Source: Umezawaea tangerina
GTDB lineage: Bacteria; Actinomycetota; Actinomycetes; Mycobacteriales; Pseudonocardiaceae
NCBI RefSeq assembly: GCF_003002815.1
Contig: NZ_PVTF01000016.1
Span: forward strand, 1-64,000
DNA length: 64,000 nt
Direction: 5' to 3'
The notes beneath the pieces are model-generated. The model did no database searches, had not been told where the DNA came from, and saw only the letters and a list, made by a program, of their open reading frames with translations. Below, in pieces: positions 1 through 34,524 of this stretch. The translations under genes and the position numbers were made by a program. How positions within the stretch are numbered: position 1 is the stretch's first letter; every line of letters starts with the position of its first letter.

Positions 1-3000
1 TCGTGGCTCGTTTCGAGGACCGGAAGTCCAAGCGGCTCGCGGTGTCGCACGCGTTCCACTCGCCGCGGATGGACGGCATGCTCGCCGAGTTCCGCACGGT
101 CGCCGCGGGGCTGTCGTTCCGCGCGCCGATGATCTCCATCGTCTCCACCCTGACCGGCAAGCTGGTCTCCTCCGACGAGATCACCTCGCCGGACTACTGG
201 GTCAAGCACGTCCGCGAGGCCGTCCGGTTCGCCGACGCGGTCAGGTCGCTGGAGTCCGAGGGCGTGTCGACGTTCCTGGAGCTGGGCCCCGACGGCGTGC
301 TCACCGCGATGGGCGCGGACAGCGCCACCAACGCGGCGCTGGTGTCCGCGCTGCGCAAGGACCGGTCCGAGGTGCGCAGCATCGTCTCCGCGCTCGGCCA
401 GGTGCACAGCCGCGGTGTCCGGGTCGACTGGTCGGCCTACTTCGCCGGGTCCGGCGCGCTGCGCGTCGAGCTGCCCACCTACGCCTTCCAGCGCGAGCGC
501 TACTGGCTCGACGGCGCGAAGCTCAAGCAGGACGTCACGTCCGCGGGCCTCGGTGCCGCCGACCACCCGCTGCTCGGCGCCGTCCTCCTCGCACCGCACG
601 GCGAAGCCCTGTTCACCGCGCGCCTGTCGCGGGCCGCGAACGTGTGGCTCACCGACCACGTCGTCGCGGGATCCGTGGTGGTGCCGGGCACCGCGCTCGT
701 CGACCTCGCCATCCGCGCGGGTGACCAGCTCGGCTGCGGACACCTCGACGAGCTGCTGCTCCAGGCCCCGCTCACGCTGCCCGAGCGCGGCGGCGTCATG
801 GTGTGCGTGTCCGTGGCCGAGCCGGACGCCTCCGCGCGCCGGTCGGTCACCATCTACTCCCGCGCCGAGGGCGACGAGGAGTCGCCGTGGACGACGCACG
901 CCACCGGTGTGCTCGCCGACGACGCCGTCACCCCCGGCTTCGACCTCGCCGCCTGGCCGCCCGCCGGTGCCGAACCGGTCGAGCTGGGCGACATCTACGA
1001 CGACCTGGCCGGTGCCGGCCTGTCCTACGGCCCGGTGTTCCGCGGCCTGAAGGCGGCCTGGCGCTCCGGCGACGACGTGTACGCCGAGGTGGCGCTGCCC
1101 GAGTCGGAACACCGCCAGGCCACCAAGTTCGGGGTGCACCCGGCGCTGCTCGACGCCGTCCTGCACGCGCTCGCGCTGGGCTCCGGCAAGGGCGAGGGCG
1201 GCTCGCTCCCGTTCTCCTGGAACGGGGTGAGCCTGCACGCGCAGGGCGCCACCGTGCTGCGCGCCAAGATCTCCCCGGTCGGCCAGGGCGACGCCGTGTC
1301 CGTCAGCGTCGCCGACGGCGGCGGTGCCCCGGTCGCGCGGATCGACTCGCTGGTGCTGCGCCCCATCGGCGGCCAGCTGGTGAAGGCGGCCACCGGTCAG
1401 CCGGACTCGCTGTTCCGGGTCGACTGGACGCCGTTGTCGTTGGAGGACAAGGAAGAGCACCCGAACACCGTCACGCTGGTCGTCCCGGACGGCGACGCCC
1501 GCGAGGTGACCGCCCGCGTGCTGGCCGACGTGCAGGCCTTCCTCGCCGACGAGCAGTCCGAGGCGGTGCTGGTCGTGGTGACCAACGGCGCCGTGTCGGT
1601 GACGCCCGGCGAGCGTTCCACCAACCTCGCGCACGCCGCCGTGTCCGGTCTGGTCCGGACCGCGCAGTCCGAGCACCTGGACCGGATCGTCCTGGTCGAC
1701 AGCGACACCCCGGACAGCGTGCCGGGCACCGCCGCCGCCAGTGGCGAGAGCGAGATCGCGTTCCGCGGTGGGAAGGCGTTCGCGCCCAGGCTCACCCGTG
1801 CGTTCGCCGGGACGGTTCCGGCGTTCGACGGTGACGGCGCGTGGCGGATGGACTTCACCGAGCAGGGCACGGTCGACAACCTGATCACGATCCCCTGGCC
1901 CGACGCCGAACGTGAGTTGGAGCCGCACGAGGTGCGGATCGCGGTGCGGGCGGCCGGGGTGAACTTCCGCGACGTGATGAACGCCCTGGGCATGTACCCC
2001 GGTGATGCCGGCCTGATGGGCCTGGAAGCCGCCGGCGTCGTGTTGGGTGTCGGGTCCGCGGTGGTGGGGTTGGCGCCGGGTGACCGGGTGATGGGCATGA
2101 TGGACGCCGCGTTCGGCCCCGTCGCCGTGGCCGACCACCGCATGGTCTGCCCCATGCCCGCCGGGTGGACCTTCACCGAAGCCGCCGGCGTCCCCCTCGT
2201 CTTCCTGACCGCGTTGTACGGGTTGGGTGACCTGGCGGGGTTGTCGGCGGGGGAGTCGGTGCTGATCCACGCCGCCGCGGGCGGGGTGGGCATGGCCGCC
2301 ACCCAGGTCGCCCGCCACTTGGGTGCCGAGGTCTACGGCACCGCCTCCACCGGCAAGTGGCACGTCCTGCGCGCCGCGGGCATCCCCGAGGACCACATCG
2401 CCTCCTCCCGCACCACGGAGTTCGAACAGCAGTTCACCACCGCCACCAACGGGCACGGGGTGGACGTGGTGCTGGATGCGTTGTCCGGCGAGTTCGTCGA
2501 CGCCTCCCTGCGCCTGGTCGGCCTCGGCCGGGCCGGTCGGTTCGTGGAGATGGGCAAGACGGACGTGCGCGACATCGACGAGGTCGCCACCCAGTACCCC
2601 GGTGTCCGCTACCGGGCCTTCGACCTGATCGAGGCCGGCCCGGACCGGATCCGGGAGATGCTCTACCAGCTCCACGACTGGTTCAGCGCCGGACACCTCA
2701 CACCACTCCCGGTCACCACCTGGGACCTGCACCGCGCCCCCGAGGCCTTCCGCTACCTGGGGCAGGCCAAGCACATCGGCAAGGTCGTCCTCACGATCCC
2801 GGCCAAGGTGGAGGGCACGGTCCTGATCACCGGCGGCACCGGCGGCCTCGGCGCCGAACTCGCCCGCCACCTGGTCACCCAGCACGGCATCAAACACCTG
2901 GTCCTGACCTCCCGCCGCGGCCTGGACGCCCCCGGCGCCACCGAACTGGTCGAGGAACTGGACGCCCAGGTCGACGTCATTGCGTGTGACGTGTCCGACC

Positions 3001-3854
3001 GCGACGCACTCGAAGCCGTGCTGGCGACCATCCCGGATTTGCACGGGGTCGTGCACACCGCGGGTGTGCTGGCCGACGGGATCCTGGAGTCGTTGACCCC
3101 GGAGCGGATCGATGCGGTGTTCGGGCCGAAGGTGGACGCGGCCTGGTACCTGCACGAGCTGACCCGTGACCGTGATCTGGCGATGTTCGTGCTGTTCTCC
3201 TCCTCGGCGGGGTTGTTGGGGTCGCCGGGGCAGGCGAACTACGCGGCGGCCAACACCTACCTCAACGGGTTGGCGGCTCATCGTCGTGCCGCGGGGTTGC
3301 CGGGTATCGCGTTGGACTGGGGGTTGTGGGACCAGAGCGCGGGGATGGGCGCGGGGCTGTCCAAGGTGGACCTCGCCCGCATGGCCCGCGCGGGCATCCC
3401 GGCGCTCTCGGTCCCCGAGGGCCTGGCGCTGTTCGACGCCTCCCTCGTCCTCGACGCCGCCGTCGCCGTCCCGATCAAGCTCGACCTCGCCGCACTGCGC
3501 TCCAGCAAGAACGAGCTGCACCCGTTGATGCGCGGCCTGGTCCGCGTGCAGGTGCGCCGGGCGGCCGCCGGTGCCGCCGCCGAGTCCTCGCAGTGGAGCC
3601 AGCGCCTGGCCGCGCTGAGCACCGCCGAGCAGGACGACCTGCTGCTGGACATGGTCCGCGGCCAGGTCGCCGTCGTGCTCGGCTTCTCCTCCGCCCAGCA
3701 GGTCCAGCCCGGCCGCGGCCTGGTGGACATGGGTCTGGACTCCCTGTCCGCCGTCGAGCTGCGCAACACCCTCAGCGCCGCCACCGGACTCCGGCTGCCC
3801 GCCACCGTCGTCTTCGACTACCCGACCCCGCAAGCGATTGCCGGTCACCTTCGC
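1..3854 (+). other. Module M1 (partial): [KS]-AT(malonyl)-DH-ER-KR-ACP, fully reducing
   Basis: The window opens inside the AT. HAFH at 48-59 (residues 16-19) is the malonyl-CoA signature. DH 561-1367 has an intact HxxxGxxxxP motif starting at His219 (657-659) and the HPALLD Asp384. ER 1842-2801 has the NADPH loop [11 protein letters not shown] near 2268. KR 2811-3500 has GGTGGLG, Tyr1080 and Asn1084; VLADG retains the second Asp of the B-type LDD motif and there is no A-type Trp, so B-type. ACP 3648-3854 carries GLDSL with Ser1247 (3741-3743). The predicted result is a fully saturated beta-carbon. The KS and most of the AT lie upstream of the window. Confidence 0.93.
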
Positions 3855-6800
3855 GTCGAGCTGGCCGACACCGCCGAGAGCCCGGCGACGCAGGTCGTGG
3901 CCGCGAGGGTCGGGTCGGACGAGCCGATCGCGATCGTCTCGATGGCCTGCCGCCTCCCCGGCGGCGTCCGCTCCCCCGAAGACCTCTGGGACCTCGTCTC
4001 CACCGGCCGCGACGCCATCTCGCCGCTGCCCGTGAACCGCGGCTGGGCGACCAACGGGCTCGGGTTCGACGTGTCGGGCGGCGGTTTCGTCGACACGGCC
4101 ACGGACTTCGACCGCGACTTCTTCGGCATCAACCCCCGCGAAGCCCTCGCGATGGACCCCCAGCAGCGGCTGCTGCTGGAGACCACCTGGGAGACGTTCG
4201 AACGGGCGGGGCTCGACCCGAAGTCCGTGCGCGGCAACCAGGTCGGCGTGTTCATCGGCGGCAGCGCCACCGACTACGGCGACGGCTCGGAGATCCCCGA
4301 GGAGCTCGCGGGCCTCATGCTCACCGGCATCACGCCGAGCGTCATGTCCGGCCGCATCGCCTACACGTTCGGCCTCGAAGGCCCCGCCCTCACCGTCGAC
4401 ACCGCCTGCTCGTCCTCACTGGTGGCACTGCACCTCGCCGCCCAGGCCCTGCGCAACGGCGAGTGCGAGAGCGCGCTGGTCGGCGGTGTCATGGTCCTCG
4501 CGACCCCGTCGGTGTTCGCGGAGTTCGCCAAGCAGAGCGGGCTGTCGCCCGACGGGCGCTGCAAGGCGTTCTCGGCCGAGGCCGACGGCACCGGCTGGGC
4601 GGAGGGCGTTGGCATGCTCCTGGTGGAGCGGCTGTCCGACGCCCAGCGCAACGGCCACGACGTCCTCGCCGTCGTCCGCGGCTCGGCGGTGAACCAGGAC
4701 GGCGCGTCCAGCACGATGACCGCCCCGAACGGTCCGTCGCAGCAGCGCGTCATCCGCCAGGCGCTGGCCAACTCCGGCCTGTCCGCGGCCGAGGTCGACG
4801 TGGTCGAGGCGCACGGCACCGGCACCAAGCTCGGCGACCCCATCGAAGCCCAGGCCGTCCTCGCCACCTACGGCCAGGACCGCGAACACCCCGTCCTCCT
4901 CGGCTCCCTCAAGTCCAACATCGGCCACGCCCAGTCCGCCGCAGGCGTCGCGGGCGTGATCAAGATGGTCCAGGCCCTGCGCCACGGCTTCGCGCCGAAG
5001 ACCCTGCACGTCGAGGACCCGTCGCCGCACATCGACTGGGCCTCCGGGGCCGTCGAGCTGCTGGCCGACACCGTCCCATGGCCCGAGACCGGCCGTCCGC
5101 GCCGGGCCGCGGTGTCCGCGTTCGGCATCGGCGGCACCAACGCCCACCTGGTGCTGGAGCAGGCGCCCGAAGGCTCTTCGTCTTCCCGGCCTGTCGTCGA
5201 AACGCCCCAAGAGCGCACGCCGGTCCCGCTGGTGCCGGTCCTGGTGTCCGGCAAGACGTCCGACGCGCTGCGCGACCAGGCCGCGAACCTGGCGGCGTTC
5301 CTGCACGACGAGACGACCGAGCTGGTCGACGTCGGCTACTCGTCCTCGGCGACCCGCGCCACGTTCGACCACCGCGCCGTCGTGGTGGCCGAGGACTGGA
5401 ACGACCTGGTCGAGGGCCTGGACGCGCTGGCGCTCGGCCAGTCGCCGACCGGTGGTGTGACCACCGGCGGGCTCGCCTTCCTGTTCACCGGCCAGGGTTC
5501 GCAGCGGCTCGGCATGGGCCGCGGGCTGTACGAGGCGTTCCCGGTCTACGCCACCGCGTTCGACGAGGTGTGCGCGCAGTTCGACGTGCCGGTGCGCGAG
5601 GCCGTGTTCGGCACCGACGCCGAGGCGCTCGACCAGACCGGCCTGACCCAGCCCGCGCTGTTCGCGGTCGAGGTCGCCCTCTACCGGCTCGCCGAGTCGT
5701 TGGGGGTGAGGCCCGACTACCTGGCGGGCCATTCGATCGGCGAGCTGGCCGCCGCGCACGTCGCCGGGGTGCTGTCCCTGGCCGACGCCTGCGCCCTGGT
5801 CGGCGCGCGCGGCAGGCTCATGCAGGCCCTGCCCGCCGGCGGGTCGATGGTCGCGGTCCAGGCCACCGAGTCCGAGGTCCGGGCGCACTTGACGGCACGG
5901 GTGTCGATCGCCGCGATCAACGGGCCGACGTCCGTGGTCGTCGCCGGTGACGACGAAGCCGTCGACGCCGTCGTGGCCGCGTTCGCCGACCGGCGCACCA
6001 AGCGGCTCAGCGTCTCGCACGCGTTCCACTCGCCGCGGATGGACGCCATGCTCAACGACTTCCGCGCGGTCGCCGACCGGTTGGCGTTCCACGAGCCCCG
6101 CATCCCCATCGTCTCCACGCTGACCGGCCGGATCGCCGAGGCCGAGGACCTGTCGTCGCCGGACTACTGGGTGCGCCACGTGCGCAACGCGGTCCGGTTC
6201 GCCGACGCCGTGCGGACGCTGGAGTCCGAGGGCGTCACCACGTTCCTGGAACTGGGGCCCGACGGTGTGCTCACCGCGATGGGCCAGGACTCCGTCACCG
6301 ACGCGGTGCTCGTGGCCGGGCAGCGCAAGGACCGCCCGGAGGCAAAGACGTTCCTGCGGGCCCTCGGCCACCTGCACTCCCGCGGTGTCGAGGTCGACTG
6401 GGCGGAGTTCTACGAGGGCACCGGCGCGCGACGCGTCGACCTGCCCACCTACTCCTTCCAGCGCGAACGCCTGTGGTTCGAACCGGCCGTCGCGTCCGGG
6501 TACGCGCCGGACTCGATCGAGGCCCGCTTCTGGGACGCGGTCGAGCACGAGGACCTGGACTCGCTGGGCGCCGCCCTGTCGGTCGAGGACTCGCAGGCGT
6601 TCGACGCCGTGCTGCCGGTGCTGTCCCGCTGGCGCCGCGACCGCCGCAGCGAGTCCACTGTGGAGGGTTGGCGCTACCGGGTCGAGTGGCGGCCCACCGA
6701 CGTCGGCACCGCCACCGCGCGGGGCCGTTGGCTGGCAGTCGGGTCCGACGACGCCGTCACCGCGCTCACCGACCGCGGTGTCGAGGTCGTCACCGTCGAC

Positions 6801-9800
6801 GCCTCCGCCGACCGCGCCGCGCTGGCCGCGGCGTTGACCGACCTCGGCCGCTTCGACGGCGTGGTCGCCTTCCCGGCGGACGTCACCGAGGCGCTGGTGC
6901 TCACGCAGGCCCTCGGCGACGCGGCCGTGGCCGCCCCGCTGTGGCTGGTGACGCGCGACGCCGTGATGACCGGCCGCGCCGACCGCCCGAGCAGCCCGGA
7001 GGCCGCCCAGATCTGGGGCTACGGCCGGGTGGTCGCCCTGGAGCTGCCGGAGCGGTGGGGTGGTCTGGTCGACCTCCCCGCGACCCTCGACAGGCGCGCG
7101 GGCGACCGGTTCGCCGCCGTGCTGGCGGGCACCGAGGACCAGGTGGCGCTGCGCTCGGCCGGGGTCTTCGGCCGCCGCCTCGCCCACGCCCCCGCGGGCA
7201 CCGGCTCGTCCTGGACGCCGCGCGGCACGGTGCTCGTCACCGGTGGCACCGGCGCGCTCGGCGGGCACGTCGCCCGCTGGCTCGCCGGGTCCGGCGCCGA
7301 GCACGTCGTGCTCACCTCCCGCCGCGGCGCGCAGGCGCCGGGTGCGGCGGAGCTGACCGCTGAGATCGAGGCGCTGGGCGCACGGGTCACGGTCGCCGCG
7401 TGCGACGCCGCCGACCGCGACGCCGTCGCCGCACTGGTCGCCGAGCACGCGTTCACGGCCGTCTTCCACGCCGCGGGCACCGACCACACCGAGCCCGTCG
7501 ACGACCACGACCCCACCGCGTTCACCGGGGTGCTGGCGGGCAAGGTCGACGGCGCCCGGCACCTGGACGAGCTGGTCGGCGAGGTCGACGCGTTCGTCCT
7601 GTTCTCCTCCATCGCGGGCATCTGGGGCAGCGGCGGCAAGTCCGCCTACGCCGCCGCCAACGCCCACCTGGACGCGCTCGCCGAGTCCCGCCGGGCCCGC
7701 GGCCTGACCGCGCTGGCGGTCTCCTGGGGCCCGTGGGCCGAAGCGGGCATGGCCGTCGAGGGCGACGCCGCCGAGCAGCTGCGCCGCCGGGGCGTGGTCG
7801 CGATGGCGACCGCGTCCGCGCTCACCGCGCTGCGCCAGGCGATCCGGCTCGACGACACCGCGGTCACCGTGGCGGACGTGGACTGGGCCCGGTTCGCTCC
7901 GGTCTTCACCGCCGCCCGGCCCAGCCCGTTCCTGGCCGACCTGCCCGAGGTGGCGGAGAAGCCCGCCGCGGTCGTCGAGGAGTCCTCGCTGGCCCGCCGG
8001 ATCGCGGCACTGCCCGAGTCCGAGCAGTCCCACGTGCTGGTGGAGCTGGTCCGCACCCAGGTCGCCGCCGCGCTCGGCCACACCTCCGCCGACGCCGTCC
8101 GGCCCGACCGGGCGTTCAAGGAGCTCGGCTTCGACTCGCTGACCGCCGTGGAGCTGCGCAACAGCCTGGTCACCGCGACCGGGCTCGGCCTGCCCGCGAC
8201 GCTCGTCTTCGACTACCCGAACCCGGCCGCGCTGGCCGAGCACCTGCGCACCGAGCTGGTCGGCAGGCGGCCCGCCGCCCTGACCCCGGTCACCGCTGCG
8301 GTGACCGACGACCCGATCGCGATCGTGGCGATGTCCTGCCGCTTCGCGGGTGGCGTCTCCTCGCCGGAGGACCTCTGGCAGCTGCTGCTCGACGGCCGCG
8401 ACGCGGTCACCGGCTTCCCGACCGACCGCGGCTGGGACCTGGACGGCCTGTACGACCCGGACCCCGACGCGGCGGGCAAGTCCTACGCCCGCGAAGGCGC
8501 GTTCCTGCACGAGGCGGGGGAGTTCGACGCGGCGTTCTTCGGGATCTCGCCCCGCGAGGCGTTGGCGATGGACCCGCAGCAGAGGTTGCTGCTGGAGACG
8601 TCGTGGGAGGCGTTCGAGCGGGCCGGGATCGACCCGGCGTCCGTGCGCGGCGCCCAGGTCGGCGTCTTCGCCGGTACCAACGGCCAGGACTACGGCACGC
8701 AGCTCACCTCGCTGCCCACCGAGCTGGAGGGCTTCTTCGGCACCGGCAACGCGGCCAGCGTGTTCTCCGGCCGCATCTCCTACACGTTCGGGTTGGAAGG
8801 CCCGGCCGTCACGGTCGACACCGCGTGCTCGTCGTCGTTGGTGGCCTTGCACCTCGCGGTGCAGGCGCTGCGCAACGGCGAGTGCGACCTGGCACTGGCC
8901 GGTGGTGTGACGATCATGTCCTCGCCGGGCGCGTTCATCGACTTCTCCCGCCAGCGCGGCCTGGCCGCCGACGGCCGCTGCAAGGCGTTCGCCTCCGGCG
9001 CCGACGGCACCGCGTGGGGCGAGGGGATCGGCATGCTCCTGGTGGAGCGGCTGTCCGACGCCCAGCGCAACGGCCACCAGGTCCTCGCGGTGGTCCGCGG
9101 CACGGCCGTGAACCAGGACGGCGCCTCGAACGGCCTGACGGCCCCGAACGGTCCGTCGCAGCAGCGGGTGATCCGCCGGGCACTGGCCCGCGCCGGTGTC
9201 GCACCGTCCGAAGTGGACGTCGTCGAGGCGCACGGCACCGGCACCGCGCTGGGCGACCCGATCGAGGCCCAGGCGCTGCTCGCGACCTACGGCCAGGACC
9301 GCGAGACCCCGCTGCTGCTGGGATCCGTCAAGTCCAACATCGGGCACACGCAGGCCGCCGCCGGTGTCGCCGCGGTGATCAAGTCGGTCATGGCGATGCG
9401 GCACGGGATCGTGCCCAGGACGCTGCACGTGGACGAGCCGTCCGCCCAGGTCGACTGGACCTCCGGCGCGGTCGAGCTGGCCACCGAGACGGTGGACTGG
9501 CCCGTCACCGGTCGTGCCCGCCGGGTCGGCGTGTCCTCGTTCGGCATGAGCGGCACCAACGCCCACGCCATCCTCGAGCAGGCTCCCGACGCCGTGAACA
9601 GCGGCTCCGGAAGCTCCCCGCTCGCCGAGGGCAGGCGCCACGTGCCGGTGCCGGTGCTGCTGTCGGCGAAGACCCCGGCGGCCCTGCGCGACCAGGCCTC
9701 GCGGCTGGCGGGCGTGGACGCGGACCTTTCCGACATCGGCCTCACACTTGCCACCGGGCGCGCGGGCTTCGAGCACCGCGCGGTGGTCATCGCCAACGGT

Positions 9801-12731
9801 GCCGACGAGCTCGAACGGGGCCTCACCGCGGTCGCCGGTGGTACGGGCGCACCCGAGGTGGTGCGCGGGACGACCGCGACCGGTCGGCTCGCCTTCCTGT
9901 TCACCGGCCAGGGTTCGCAGCGGCTCGGCATGGGGCGTGAGCTGTACGAGGCGTTCCCGGTGTTCGCCGACGCGTTCGACGCGGTGTGCGCCCGGTTCGA
10001 CCTGCCGCTGCGCGACGTCGTGTTCGGCGACGACCCGGCGCCGCTCGACCGGACCGGGTACACCCAGCCCGCGCTGTTCGCGGTCGAGGTGGCGCTGTTC
10101 CGGCTGACCGAGTCGTGGGGTGTCAAGCCCGACTACCTGGCGGGGCACTCCATCGGCGAGCTGGCCGCCGCGCACGTCTCCGGCGTGCTGTCGCTGGACG
10201 ACGCGGCCACCCTGGTCGGCGCACGGGGCCGCCTGATGCAGGCGCTCCCCGCCGGTGGCGAGATGGTCGCCCTGCAGGCCACCGAGGCCGAGGTGCTGGA
10301 GCACCTGACCGACCGGGTCTCCATCGCCGCCGTCAACGGGCCGTCGTCGGTCGTCGTGGCCGGGGACGAGGACGCCGTGCGGCAGGTGGTCGATGCGTTC
10401 GGCGACCGGAAGTCCAAGCGGCTCAGCGTCTCCCACGCGTTCCACTCGCCGCGCATGGACGCCATGCTCGAGGAGTTCCGCGTGGTGGCCAAGGAGCTGA
10501 CCTTCTCCGCGCCGCGCATCCCGATCGTCTCCACGCTGACCGGCGAGCTCGCCACCACCGAGGACGTGACCTCGGTCGACTACTGGGTCCGCCACGTCCG
10601 CGACACCGTCCGCTTCGCCCACGCCGTGCGCACCCTGGAACTGGCCGGTGTCACGACGTTCCTGGAGCTGGGCCCGGACGCGGTGCTGACCGCGATGGGC
10701 GCCGAGAGCGTCACCGACGCCGAGCTGGTGCCCGCGTCGCGCTCGGACAAGCCCGAGGTCGACACCCTCGTCACGGCGCTGGCGAAGCTGCACGTCCGCG
10801 GGGTCGGCGTCGACTGGACGCCGTTCTTCGCGGGGTCCGGCGCCCGCCGGGTCGGCCTGCCGACCTACCCGTTCCAGCGCGAGCGCTTCTGGCTCGCCTC
10901 CGACGAGAACCCCGGCACCGACGCCCTGCGCTACCGCGTCGAGTGGACGCCCGTCGCGGAAGGCGGCAACACGGCCTCCGGCCTGTGGCTGGTCGTCACC
11001 CCGACCGGTGTCGAGGAGTCCGAGCTGGTCGCCGGGCTGTCCCGGCGCGGGCTCGACATCGCCTCGATCGGCGCCTCCGGGGACCGGGCCGCGCTGGCCG
11101 AGACCCTGGCCGGGCTCGACGCGGTGGACGGCGTGCTGTCGCTGTCCGACAGCGTCACCGACAACCTGGTGCTGGTGCAGGCGCTCGGCGACGCCGGTGT
11201 CGACGCCCCGCTGTGGGCGGCGACCCGCGGCGCGGTGTCGACCGGCTCGGACGACCCGGTGCTCAGCCCGGCGCAGGCCCAGATCTGGGGCCTCGGCGTG
11301 GTCGCCGCACTGGAGCACCCCGACCGCTGGGGTGGCCTGGTCGACCTGCCGGAGCACTGGGACGAGACCGTGCTCGACCACCTCGTCGCAGTGCTGGCGG
11401 GCGTGGAGGACCAGGTCGCGGTGCGGCCGTCCGGGGTCGTGGCCCGCAGGCTGGTGCACGCACCGGCCGGGCCGTCGACCGGCACGTGGACGCCGCGCGG
11501 CACCGTGCTGGTGACCGGTGGCACCGGGGCGCTCGGCGGGCAGGTCGCCCGCTGGCTGGCCGGTGCCGGTGCCGAGCACCTGGTGCTCACCGCCGACCAC
11601 GACGCCCCCGCCGACCAGGGGCTGCTGGCCGAGCTCGCCGCGCTCGGCGTCCGGACCACCGTCGCGCACTGCGACGTGACCGACCGGGCCCAGGCCGCGG
11701 TGCTCGTCGACCAGCACAGCCCCGACGCCGTGGTGCACGCGGTCGAGGTCGCGCAGTCGACCCCGTTGCGCGACAACGACGTCGCCGGGTTCTCCTCGGT
11801 GCTCGCCGCCAAGATCATGGGCGCCGCGCACCTGGACGACCTGCTCGGCGACACCCCACTGGACGCCTTCGTGGTGTTCTCCTCCACGGCCGGTGTCTGG
11901 GGCAGCGCGAACCAGGCCGCCTACGCGGCGGGCAGCGCCTTCCTCGACGCGCTGGCCGAACAGCGCCGCTCCCGCGGCCGCACCGGGCTCTCGGTGGCCT
12001 GGGGACCGTGGGCCGGTGGCGAGCAGGACGACGTGCTGCGCCGCACCGGACTCCCCGCCCTGCGCCCGGAACGGGCGGTCGCCGCGCTGCGGCAGGCCGT
12101 GGAGTCCGGCGACACGACGGTCACCGTCGCGGACGTGGACTGGGACCGCTTCTCGGCGATCTTCACCGCTACCAGGCCGAGCCCGCTCATCGCGGACCTG
12201 CCCGAGGTGCGTCGGGCCGCGGCGGGCGACGACGGGTCCGGTGTGGACACCAGCGCCGCCCTGCGGACGAAGCTGTTGGCACTGGCCGAGTCCGACCGGG
12301 ACCGGCTGCTGATCGACCTGGTGCGCGAGCAGGTCGCCTCGGTGCTCGGCCACACCTCGGCCGCCTCGATCGAGGCCGACCGGGCGTTCCGCGAGCTCGG
12401 CTTCTCCTCGCTCACGGCGGTGGAGCTGCGCAACAACCTCAACACCACGACCGGCCTCAGGCTGCCCGCCACGCTCGTCTTCGACTACCCGACGCCCCTG
12501 CTCCTGGTCGACCTGCTGCGCACCGAGCTCCTCGGTGACACGGCGGAGACCGAGGTGCGCCAGGCGCTCGCGGGTCTGTCGTTGGACCGGCTGCGCGAGG
12601 CGGGCCTGCTCGACGCGCTGCTGCGGCTGGTGAACGGCGAGGCCGAACCGGCCGCGGCCGACGGGGAGTCGATCGACGACATGGACGTCGACAACCTCGT
12701 CGAGATGGCACTCGACAGCAGCAACTCCTGA
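1..12731 (+). CDS. ORF1: modular type I polyketide synthase, 5'-partial (end of M1, M2, M3)
   Basis: The reading frame is open from the first base; the GTG at base 3 lies inside an AT domain and is not the start. Visible domains, numbering that GTG as residue 1: AT C-terminus (1-122), DH (187-455), ER (614-933), KR (937-1166), ACP (1216-1284); then KS (1307-1722), AT (1823-2111), dimerization-element-like segment (2171-2222), KR (2223-2635), ACP (2678-2749); then KS (2770-3195), AT (3295-3583), KR (3642-4054), ACP (4102-4173) and a C-terminal docking tail. It is a cytosolic assembly-line enzyme adding three malonate-derived units. ORF2 starts 25 bp downstream, so the two are probably cotranscribed. 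Oddities are concentrated in the last module: a KR with altered cofactor residues and an ACP with SSL instead of DSL. PKS identity is certain; specificity is inferred from motifs. Confidence 0.98.
3921..8249 (+). other. Module M2: KS-AT(malonyl)-DE-KR(A-type)-ACP
   Basis: KS 3921-5168 has the active-site Cys1469 in DTACSSS. AT 5469-6335 has GHSIGE (Ser1911) and HAFH (6018-6029), predicting malonyl-CoA. A roughly 52-residue segment with [10 protein letters not shown] and WRRDRR (6513-6668) fits the dimerization element (DE) found in KR-only modules. KR 6669-7907 includes the structural half; the catalytic half starts near 7218 with GGTGALG and an intact SRRG cofactor loop. The Lys in AGKVDGA, Tyr2549 and Asn2553 are all present, and GIWGSGG marks an A-type KR, predicting an L-configured hydroxyl. 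ACP 8034-8249 has GFDSL with Ser2712. This is the canonical reference for the KR-only modules that follow. Confidence 0.93.
8310..12521 (+). other. Module M3: KS-AT(malonyl)-KR(aberrant)-ACP(SSL)
   Basis: KS 8310-9587 has Cys2942 in DTACSSS. AT 9885-10751 has GHSIGE (Ser3383) and HAFH (10434-10445), predicting malonyl-CoA. Only about 20 residues separate the post-AT motif from the KR, so the DE-like segment of M2 is absent. KR 10926-12164 keeps GGTGALG, Lys3937, the catalytic Ser3961 and Tyr3974. However, the usual SRRG reads ADHD (residues 3864-3867), HAAG reads HAVE (3912-3915) and the tetrad Asn is Ser3978. ACP 12306-12521 reads GFSSL: the acceptor Ser4136 is kept but the preceding Asp is Ser4135. 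The beta-carbon may stay a ketone or be reduced with altered cofactor preference. This is the last module of ORF1. Confidence 0.9.
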
Positions 12732-12756
12732 TCAGCCCCGAAGTGCGGAGCACAAG

Positions 12757-34524
<21,768 letters not shown>

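Follow-up and report, generated by a model that had tools for sequence, protein, structure and literature searches.

Structures of ketoreductase (KR) regions that carry a dimerisation element, PDB 4imp (The missing linker) and the KR of AmphI (PDB 4l4x), C-type non-reducing KRs such as the C2-type PDB 3qp9, in which the KR fold is kept and cofactor or tetrad residues are altered, and the guanidinobutyrate-primed linear polyene polyol synthases for clethramycin, mediomycin and ECO-02301 are the closest described systems to the modular polyketide synthase (PKS) line of Umezawaea tangerina considered here. The stretch analysed (the window) covers the opening 64 kb of contig C16 in the 10.68 Mb genome (G000), where seven consecutive KR-only modules, M2-M8, alternate between two architectures. 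M4 aligns with both 4imp and 4l4x over the element and the KR, whereas M3, M5 and M7 differ from these structures in that the element is absent. The KRs of the latter three modules, which we call the odd KRs, resemble C-type KRs in their altered cofactor or tetrad residues, with the particularity that M5 and M7 change both Lys and Asn and that M5 keeps its cofactor motifs; a structural model of the M7 KR matches 3qp9 as well as A-type and other KRs. Unlike the situation in 3qp9, there is no alpha-centre to epimerise in this segment, because the extender is malonyl by motif.

Our reading of the locus, to which we assign a probability of roughly 0.55, is that it contains a copied two-module block and that hydroxyls from M2, M4, M6 and M8 alternate with ketones from M3, M5 and M7. 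The even modules would turn the beta-ketone into a hydroxyl, the odd modules would keep the KR fold for structure and leave a ketone each, and the predicted chain segment would read ...CH(OH)-CH2-C(=O)-CH2-CH(OH)-CH2-C(=O)-CH2-CH(OH)-CH2-C(=O)-CH2-CH(OH)..., with a saturated unit on either side, supplied by M1 and M9. M4-M8 would have arisen through copying of a block consisting of ketosynthase (KS)-acyltransferase (AT)-dimerisation element-KR-acyl carrier protein (ACP) followed by KS-AT-KR-ACP, M2-M3 being a pair of like pattern that is older or has recombined. Module architecture, its recurrence across the three genomes, the KR residues and the branching patterns are observations, from which loss of reduction, the product and the route of duplication are deduced.

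Alternation of the dimerisation element

The seven modules are spread over two proteins, the first of which has a 4963-aa orthologue, stop to stop, in G002, one of two other genomes of the same genus (G001 and G002) that hold an orthologous line; for the second, the Pfam scan covered the first 4000 aa. The two open reading frames (ORFs), the element matches and the element-less linkers are as follows.

3..12731, + strand: PKS protein with M1 (dehydratase (DH)-enoylreductase-KR-ACP, cut by the contig end), M2 and M3; from ORF and Pfam domains
12757..34524, + strand: PKS protein with M4-M8, five KR-only modules; from ORF, motifs and Pfam
6519..6647, + strand: dimerisation element of M2; PF18369, 59.3 bits
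15421..15537, + strand: dimerisation element of M4, the weakest score of the four in M2-M8; PF18369, 40.1 bits in the whole-genome search, 35.6 bits in the linker scan
23971..24099, + strand: dimerisation element of M6; PF18369, 63.0 bits
32509..32634, + strand: dimerisation element of M8; PF18369, 53.2 bits
48902..49027: dimerisation element of M11; PF18369, 64.8 bits
10857..11498, + strand: M3 linker and KR structural part, without the element; post-AT motif to KR catalytic part
19765..20343, + strand: M5 linker and KR structural part, without the element; post-AT motif to KR catalytic part
28321..28902, + strand: M7 linker and KR structural part, without the element; post-AT motif to KR catalytic part

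The initial annotation had described an extra segment between AT and KR in M2, M4, M6 and M8 that is missing from M3, M5 and M7, and had taken it for the dimerisation element. Both statements are borne out: all five matches to PF18369 in the window lie above the curated cut-off, the post-AT linker measures 93-101 aa in the even modules as against 38-48 aa in the odd ones, where the KR starts straight after LPTYxFQ, and the order of the element is the same in 3/3 genomes found with the line. The possibility, also raised there, that M3, M5 and M7 retain a diverged element was pursued by several routes. The whole-genome PF18369 search, in which 150 of 196 first-look candidates were scored, gave no match in these three modules; a direct Pfam scan of their AT-KR linkers with E values up to 10 found no element, the M2 and M4 linkers being positive in the same scan; and with our own hidden Markov model (HMM), built from the 17 Pfam element matches of G000, the odd linkers of the three genomes all scored below 5 bits. 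Exact alternation is one of 35 arrangements of three minus and four plus modules, and the three modules without the element are exactly those with the odd KR form, out of 12 KR-only modules in the line of G000 (1 in 220), figures that concern modules related by duplication and hence draws that are not independent. Elsewhere in the line, module A4 (our naming; contig C22 of G000; loci L013 and L014) has a shortened element in which FWSIVDNGDL is kept; it scores 5.4-7.7 bits with our HMM in the three genomes and is not listed by the Pfam search.

A wider comparison covered 97 KR-only modules from 11 regions of 8 genomes in other lines, classified with our HMM at a threshold of 10 bits; since the regions had been chosen by score in an earlier search and some are apparent relatives of one another (G024 and G025), the counts are not independent. 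The element is present in 75 of these modules, absent from 21 and weak in one. The catalytic K, S, Y and N are kept in 21/21 of the element-less KRs, and the element is kept in 7/7 of the KRs in which K, S or Y is altered, one of which (G024C1 at 25716) differs at Ser only. A rule by which a missing dimerisation element marks a dead KR is thereby rejected: loss of the element and change of the KR are separable, and in the other lines parsed the element does not indicate KR activity. In the present line the two seem to co-travel by descent, and we take the missing element to be a trait that descended with the odd KR type and does not set the chemistry. A strict plus/minus succession of more than three KR-only modules occurs in no other parsed protein, counting modules in which both a KR and an AT were located.

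Ketoreductase residues and the predicted chemistry

The catalytic parts of the seven KRs, all delimited with PF08659 and read residue by residue (for M7 also with a model), are these.

7224..7742, + strand: M2, canonical K/S/Y/N, A-type
11499..12014, + strand: M3, SRR lost, HAAG changed to HAVE, Asn to Ser, Lys kept
16162..16686, + strand: M4, Asn to Ser, otherwise canonical
20344..20850, + strand: M5, catalytic Lys to Arg, Asn to Asp, with a shorter lid
24700..25224, + strand: M6, Asn to Ser, otherwise canonical
28903..29376, + strand: M7, Lys to Arg, Asn to Asp, with a gap of about 14 residues following beta-2
33250..33774, + strand: M8, Asn to Ser, otherwise canonical

These states are conserved in the three genomes: the three M3 changes recur in 3/3 orthologues, the coupled Lys-to-Arg and Asn-to-Asp changes of M5 and M7 in 6/6 orthologous rows, and the change from YxxxN to YxxxS in M4, M6 and M8 in 9/9 rows. 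Two of them are peculiar to this line among the 252 KRs surveyed, where Lys to Arg is found in 6, all of them M5 or M7, and Asn to Ser in 12, all of them M3, M4, M6 or M8. NADPH-binding motifs are recognisable in M2, M4, M5, M6 and M8 and are lost in M3; the M5 motif reads SRH in G000 and SRR in G001 and G002, and M7 has lost the second Arg. In the AF2 model of M7 the helix between beta-2 and beta-3 is missing. Because the models are of moderate quality (mean pLDDT, the predicted local distance difference score, 70.3 for M7, 64.5 for M6, both with 8 rows), active-site geometry was not read from them.

According to the available part of a review (PMC5331325), all reductase-active KRs carry the Tyr/Ser/Lys/Asn tetrad. 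Within M2-M8 the full tetrad is found in M2 alone; judged by this rule, M5 and M7 fall short at two residues, M3 at Asn and additionally in its cofactor motif, and M4, M6 and M8 at Asn. Since M3, M5 and M7 are without the cofactor or tetrad residues reported for reducing KRs, an alternation of hydroxyl and ketone is the best-supported chemistry, loss of reduction in the odd modules being what these residues suggest. The KRs of M4, M6 and M8 are probably active, as they are otherwise intact and mutually alike (0.79-0.87 identity), with the altered Asn making this uncertain. The view that the abnormal residues are confined to the three element-less modules thus holds for the odd form itself and fails for the even modules, three of which deviate too. 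C-type KRs make up 12% of the KRs in actinobacterial beta-modules in the product-annotated set of one source, as given in the part available (PMC11228615).

Carried to its end, the tetrad rule would have none of M3-M8 reduce and would predict a run of six ketones, since the canonical tetrad is absent from all six: Asn, the residue named in the review (PMC5331325, available part), is Ser in four of them and Asp in two, and Asn to Ser occurs in 0/97 KR-only KRs of other lines and in 0/120 KRs of DH modules. We regard this outcome as very unlikely, given that M4, M6 and M8 are otherwise canonical and mutually alike and that Pfam matched no cyclase or aromatase family in the ten flanking proteins scanned, other flanking genes lying outside the scan. 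A free hexaketone, moreover, would be reactive. It is also distinctly improbable, if a shade less so, that the odd modules reduce partially and that the strain yields a mixture of ketone and hydroxyl congeners, as the retained cofactor motifs of M5 might suggest.

The initial annotation had proposed either hydroxyl/ketone alternation or alternation of opposite hydroxyl configurations, and the residues favour the former. In the latter, A-type and B-type KRs would take turns, and two KR classes do take turns in the trees described below; all seven KRs, however, have the A-type Trp eight residues before the catalytic Tyr without LDD, a pattern in which the Trp is present in 35/35 KR-only KRs of the three orthologous lines and LDD in none, and HAFH, the motif for a malonyl extender, is present in the ATs of M2-M8. 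With A-type motifs throughout M2-M8, opposite configurations are not to be expected, and we consider them scarcely credible.

Origin of the alternation and constraint on the odd KRs

Phylogenies were built from 35 rows, the 12 KR-only modules of each of the three genomes less the one missing from G001. Three adjacent pairings were put to a clade test, M5+M6, M6+M7 and M7+M8, and these are rejected in KS, KR and AT alike (9/9 tests, p of the approximately unbiased test (p-AU) 0.0025 or less). M5 and M7 fall on one side of a branch in KR (99/93), AT (93/89) and, weakly, KS (76/42), M6 and M8 are recovered together in KS (100/100) and KR (98/94), and the KR tree groups M4+M6+M8 (100/99) and M3+M5+M7 (89/96). 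Quick trees with all modules broadly agree (KS: M6+M8 100, M5+M7 90; AT: M5+M7 95, M4+M6 93). Because the adjacent pairings tested are rejected and M5+M7 and M6+M8 are recovered, copying of a two-module block is likely. The repeating two-module unit envisaged earlier for the whole of M2-M8 is thus upheld for M4-M8 by the KS, KR and partly the AT trees, while M2-M3 fits it in the KR tree only. Recombination between modules probably acted as well, since the M3 KS pairs with that of A2 (100/99), a module of the first PKS protein in our naming, and the M4 KS with that of M2 (100/98), and since the AT tree departs from the pattern in the two respects given below.

The branches of the odd KRs are also long. 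Since the M5/M7 split the KR branches amount to 0.26 and 0.37, compared with 0.05 and 0.05 since the M6/M8 split; for the KS domains of the same modules the values are 0.14 and 0.23 (M5/M7) versus 0.12 and 0.12 (M6/M8), a far smaller contrast. Pairwise comparison of the three genomes gives dN/dS values for the KR catalytic part of 0.25 in M3, 0.17 in M5 and 0.12 in M7 (mean 0.18), and a mean of 0.156 for the nine KRs with the element. Such normal constraint could reflect function lost in the past and a structural role retained, and it is compatible too with kept activity or a new role.

Several of these observations weigh against our reading. The tetrad rule makes M4, M6 and M8 suspect together with the odd modules, M3 retains its Lys and M5 its cofactor motifs; the branch contrast could stem from homogenisation among the even KRs without any loss of function, and decay of the odd KRs is unsupported by the pairwise dN/dS of the three genomes, in which purifying selection persists. 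In the trees, M3+M5+M7 receives just 64 for KR in a larger quick tree, M3 lies outside M5+M7 in KS (the tree holding them together is rejected, p-AU 0.005), M4 lies outside M6+M8 in KS (p-AU 0.042), and the AT tree lacks M6+M8, though without rejecting it (p-AU 0.30), and joins the neighbours M2 and M3 (81/59).

Alternatively, all seven KRs might reduce and the segment be a uniform polyol of one configuration, the alternation being a mere trace of module copying. The A-type Trp and the catalytic Ser and Tyr are present in all seven, the odd KRs are still under purifying selection, and the element-less KRs of the other lines parsed are intact throughout (21/21). What makes this improbable in our view is the lost cofactor motif of M3, the Lys-to-Arg and Asn-to-Asp changes of M5 and M7, the helix missing from the M7 model and the long branches of the odd KRs. 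Equally doubtful is a more pointed version of hydroxyl/ketone alternation, in which M4-M7 would be a two-module cassette for strict alternation and the Arg/Asp KRs of M5 and M7 a selected non-reducing type, possibly holding or passing on the beta-keto chain.

The odd KR type was sought in 394 genomes of the class, with at most 8 candidates scored per genome. The best match outside G000 reached 245 bits, as against 304-349 bits for the odd KRs themselves and up to 254 bits for other KRs of G000. Of 30 loci read from this search one is M5 itself; K, Y and N are intact in 28 of the remaining 29, and the other, L099 (G129:C10:6278-6880), has Arg and Asp. L099 belongs to another family of the class; its Arg/Asp pair is that of M5 and M7, yet it has a dimerisation element (41 bits). 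A strict DNA pattern for Arg...TyrxxxAsp, which would miss codon or motif variants, was run with two spacings on 197 genomes each and returned M5, M7 and one G129 site inside the L099 match.

The assembly line and its setting

In G002 the entire line lies on a single contig: seven proteins hold its 24 extension modules, the first KS is preceded by an ACP motif, and a thioesterase (TE) motif closes the line. A run of DH-KR modules is also part of the line. The G001 line has 23 extension modules, and the G000 line has 12 KR-only modules, the counterpart of the first PKS protein of G002 sitting on a separate contig, C22. The first PKS protein of G001 (contig C9; L024 and L025) has five modules versus six in G000 and G002, the absent one being A2, which is KR-only with the element. 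Contigs C12 and C16 of G000 start in similar PKS DNA, with 82.8% identity over 8.4 kb (window 1-8259; L012, G000:C12:1-8235). By this likeness G000 has a second line whose modules resemble M1-M2, a possible reason for the assembly break at the start of C16.

Among the flanking proteins scanned are, upstream in G002, an amine oxidase, a CN-hydrolase and a LuxR-type regulator and, downstream in G000, an AMP ligase, a VinK-like acyltransferase, an arginase/agmatinase-family protein and a glycosyltransferase. The line resembles guanidinobutyrate-primed polyene PKSs in its starter families, namely the amine oxidase and CN-hydrolase (G002) and the AMP ligase and agmatinase-family protein (G000), and in the ACP motif before the first KS. 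An oxidase, a hydrolase, a ligase and an agmatinase are among the primer genes for guanidinobutyrate- or aminobutyrate-primed linear polyene polyols in the available part of one source (PMC8944477), which also gives HAFH as the malonyl motif of ATs. At the Pfam level these families would fit the arginine oxidase, amide hydrolase and CoA ligase of this starter class, of which the line is a candidate member. The likeness lies in the starter families and the ACP motif; clethramycin and mediomycin have 27 extension modules (PMC5704753, available part) compared with 24 in G002 and 23 in G001. A macrolactone product is also possible, because a TE motif is present.

If our reading is correct, the line would be a natural case of PKS growth by two-module blocks, in keeping with trees in which the pairing of neighbours within M5-M8 is rejected. 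The three orthologous lines make reduction by KRs with Arg/Asp or Ser tetrads directly testable, and a poly-hydroxyketone segment would be predicted in an undescribed Umezawaea polyketide.
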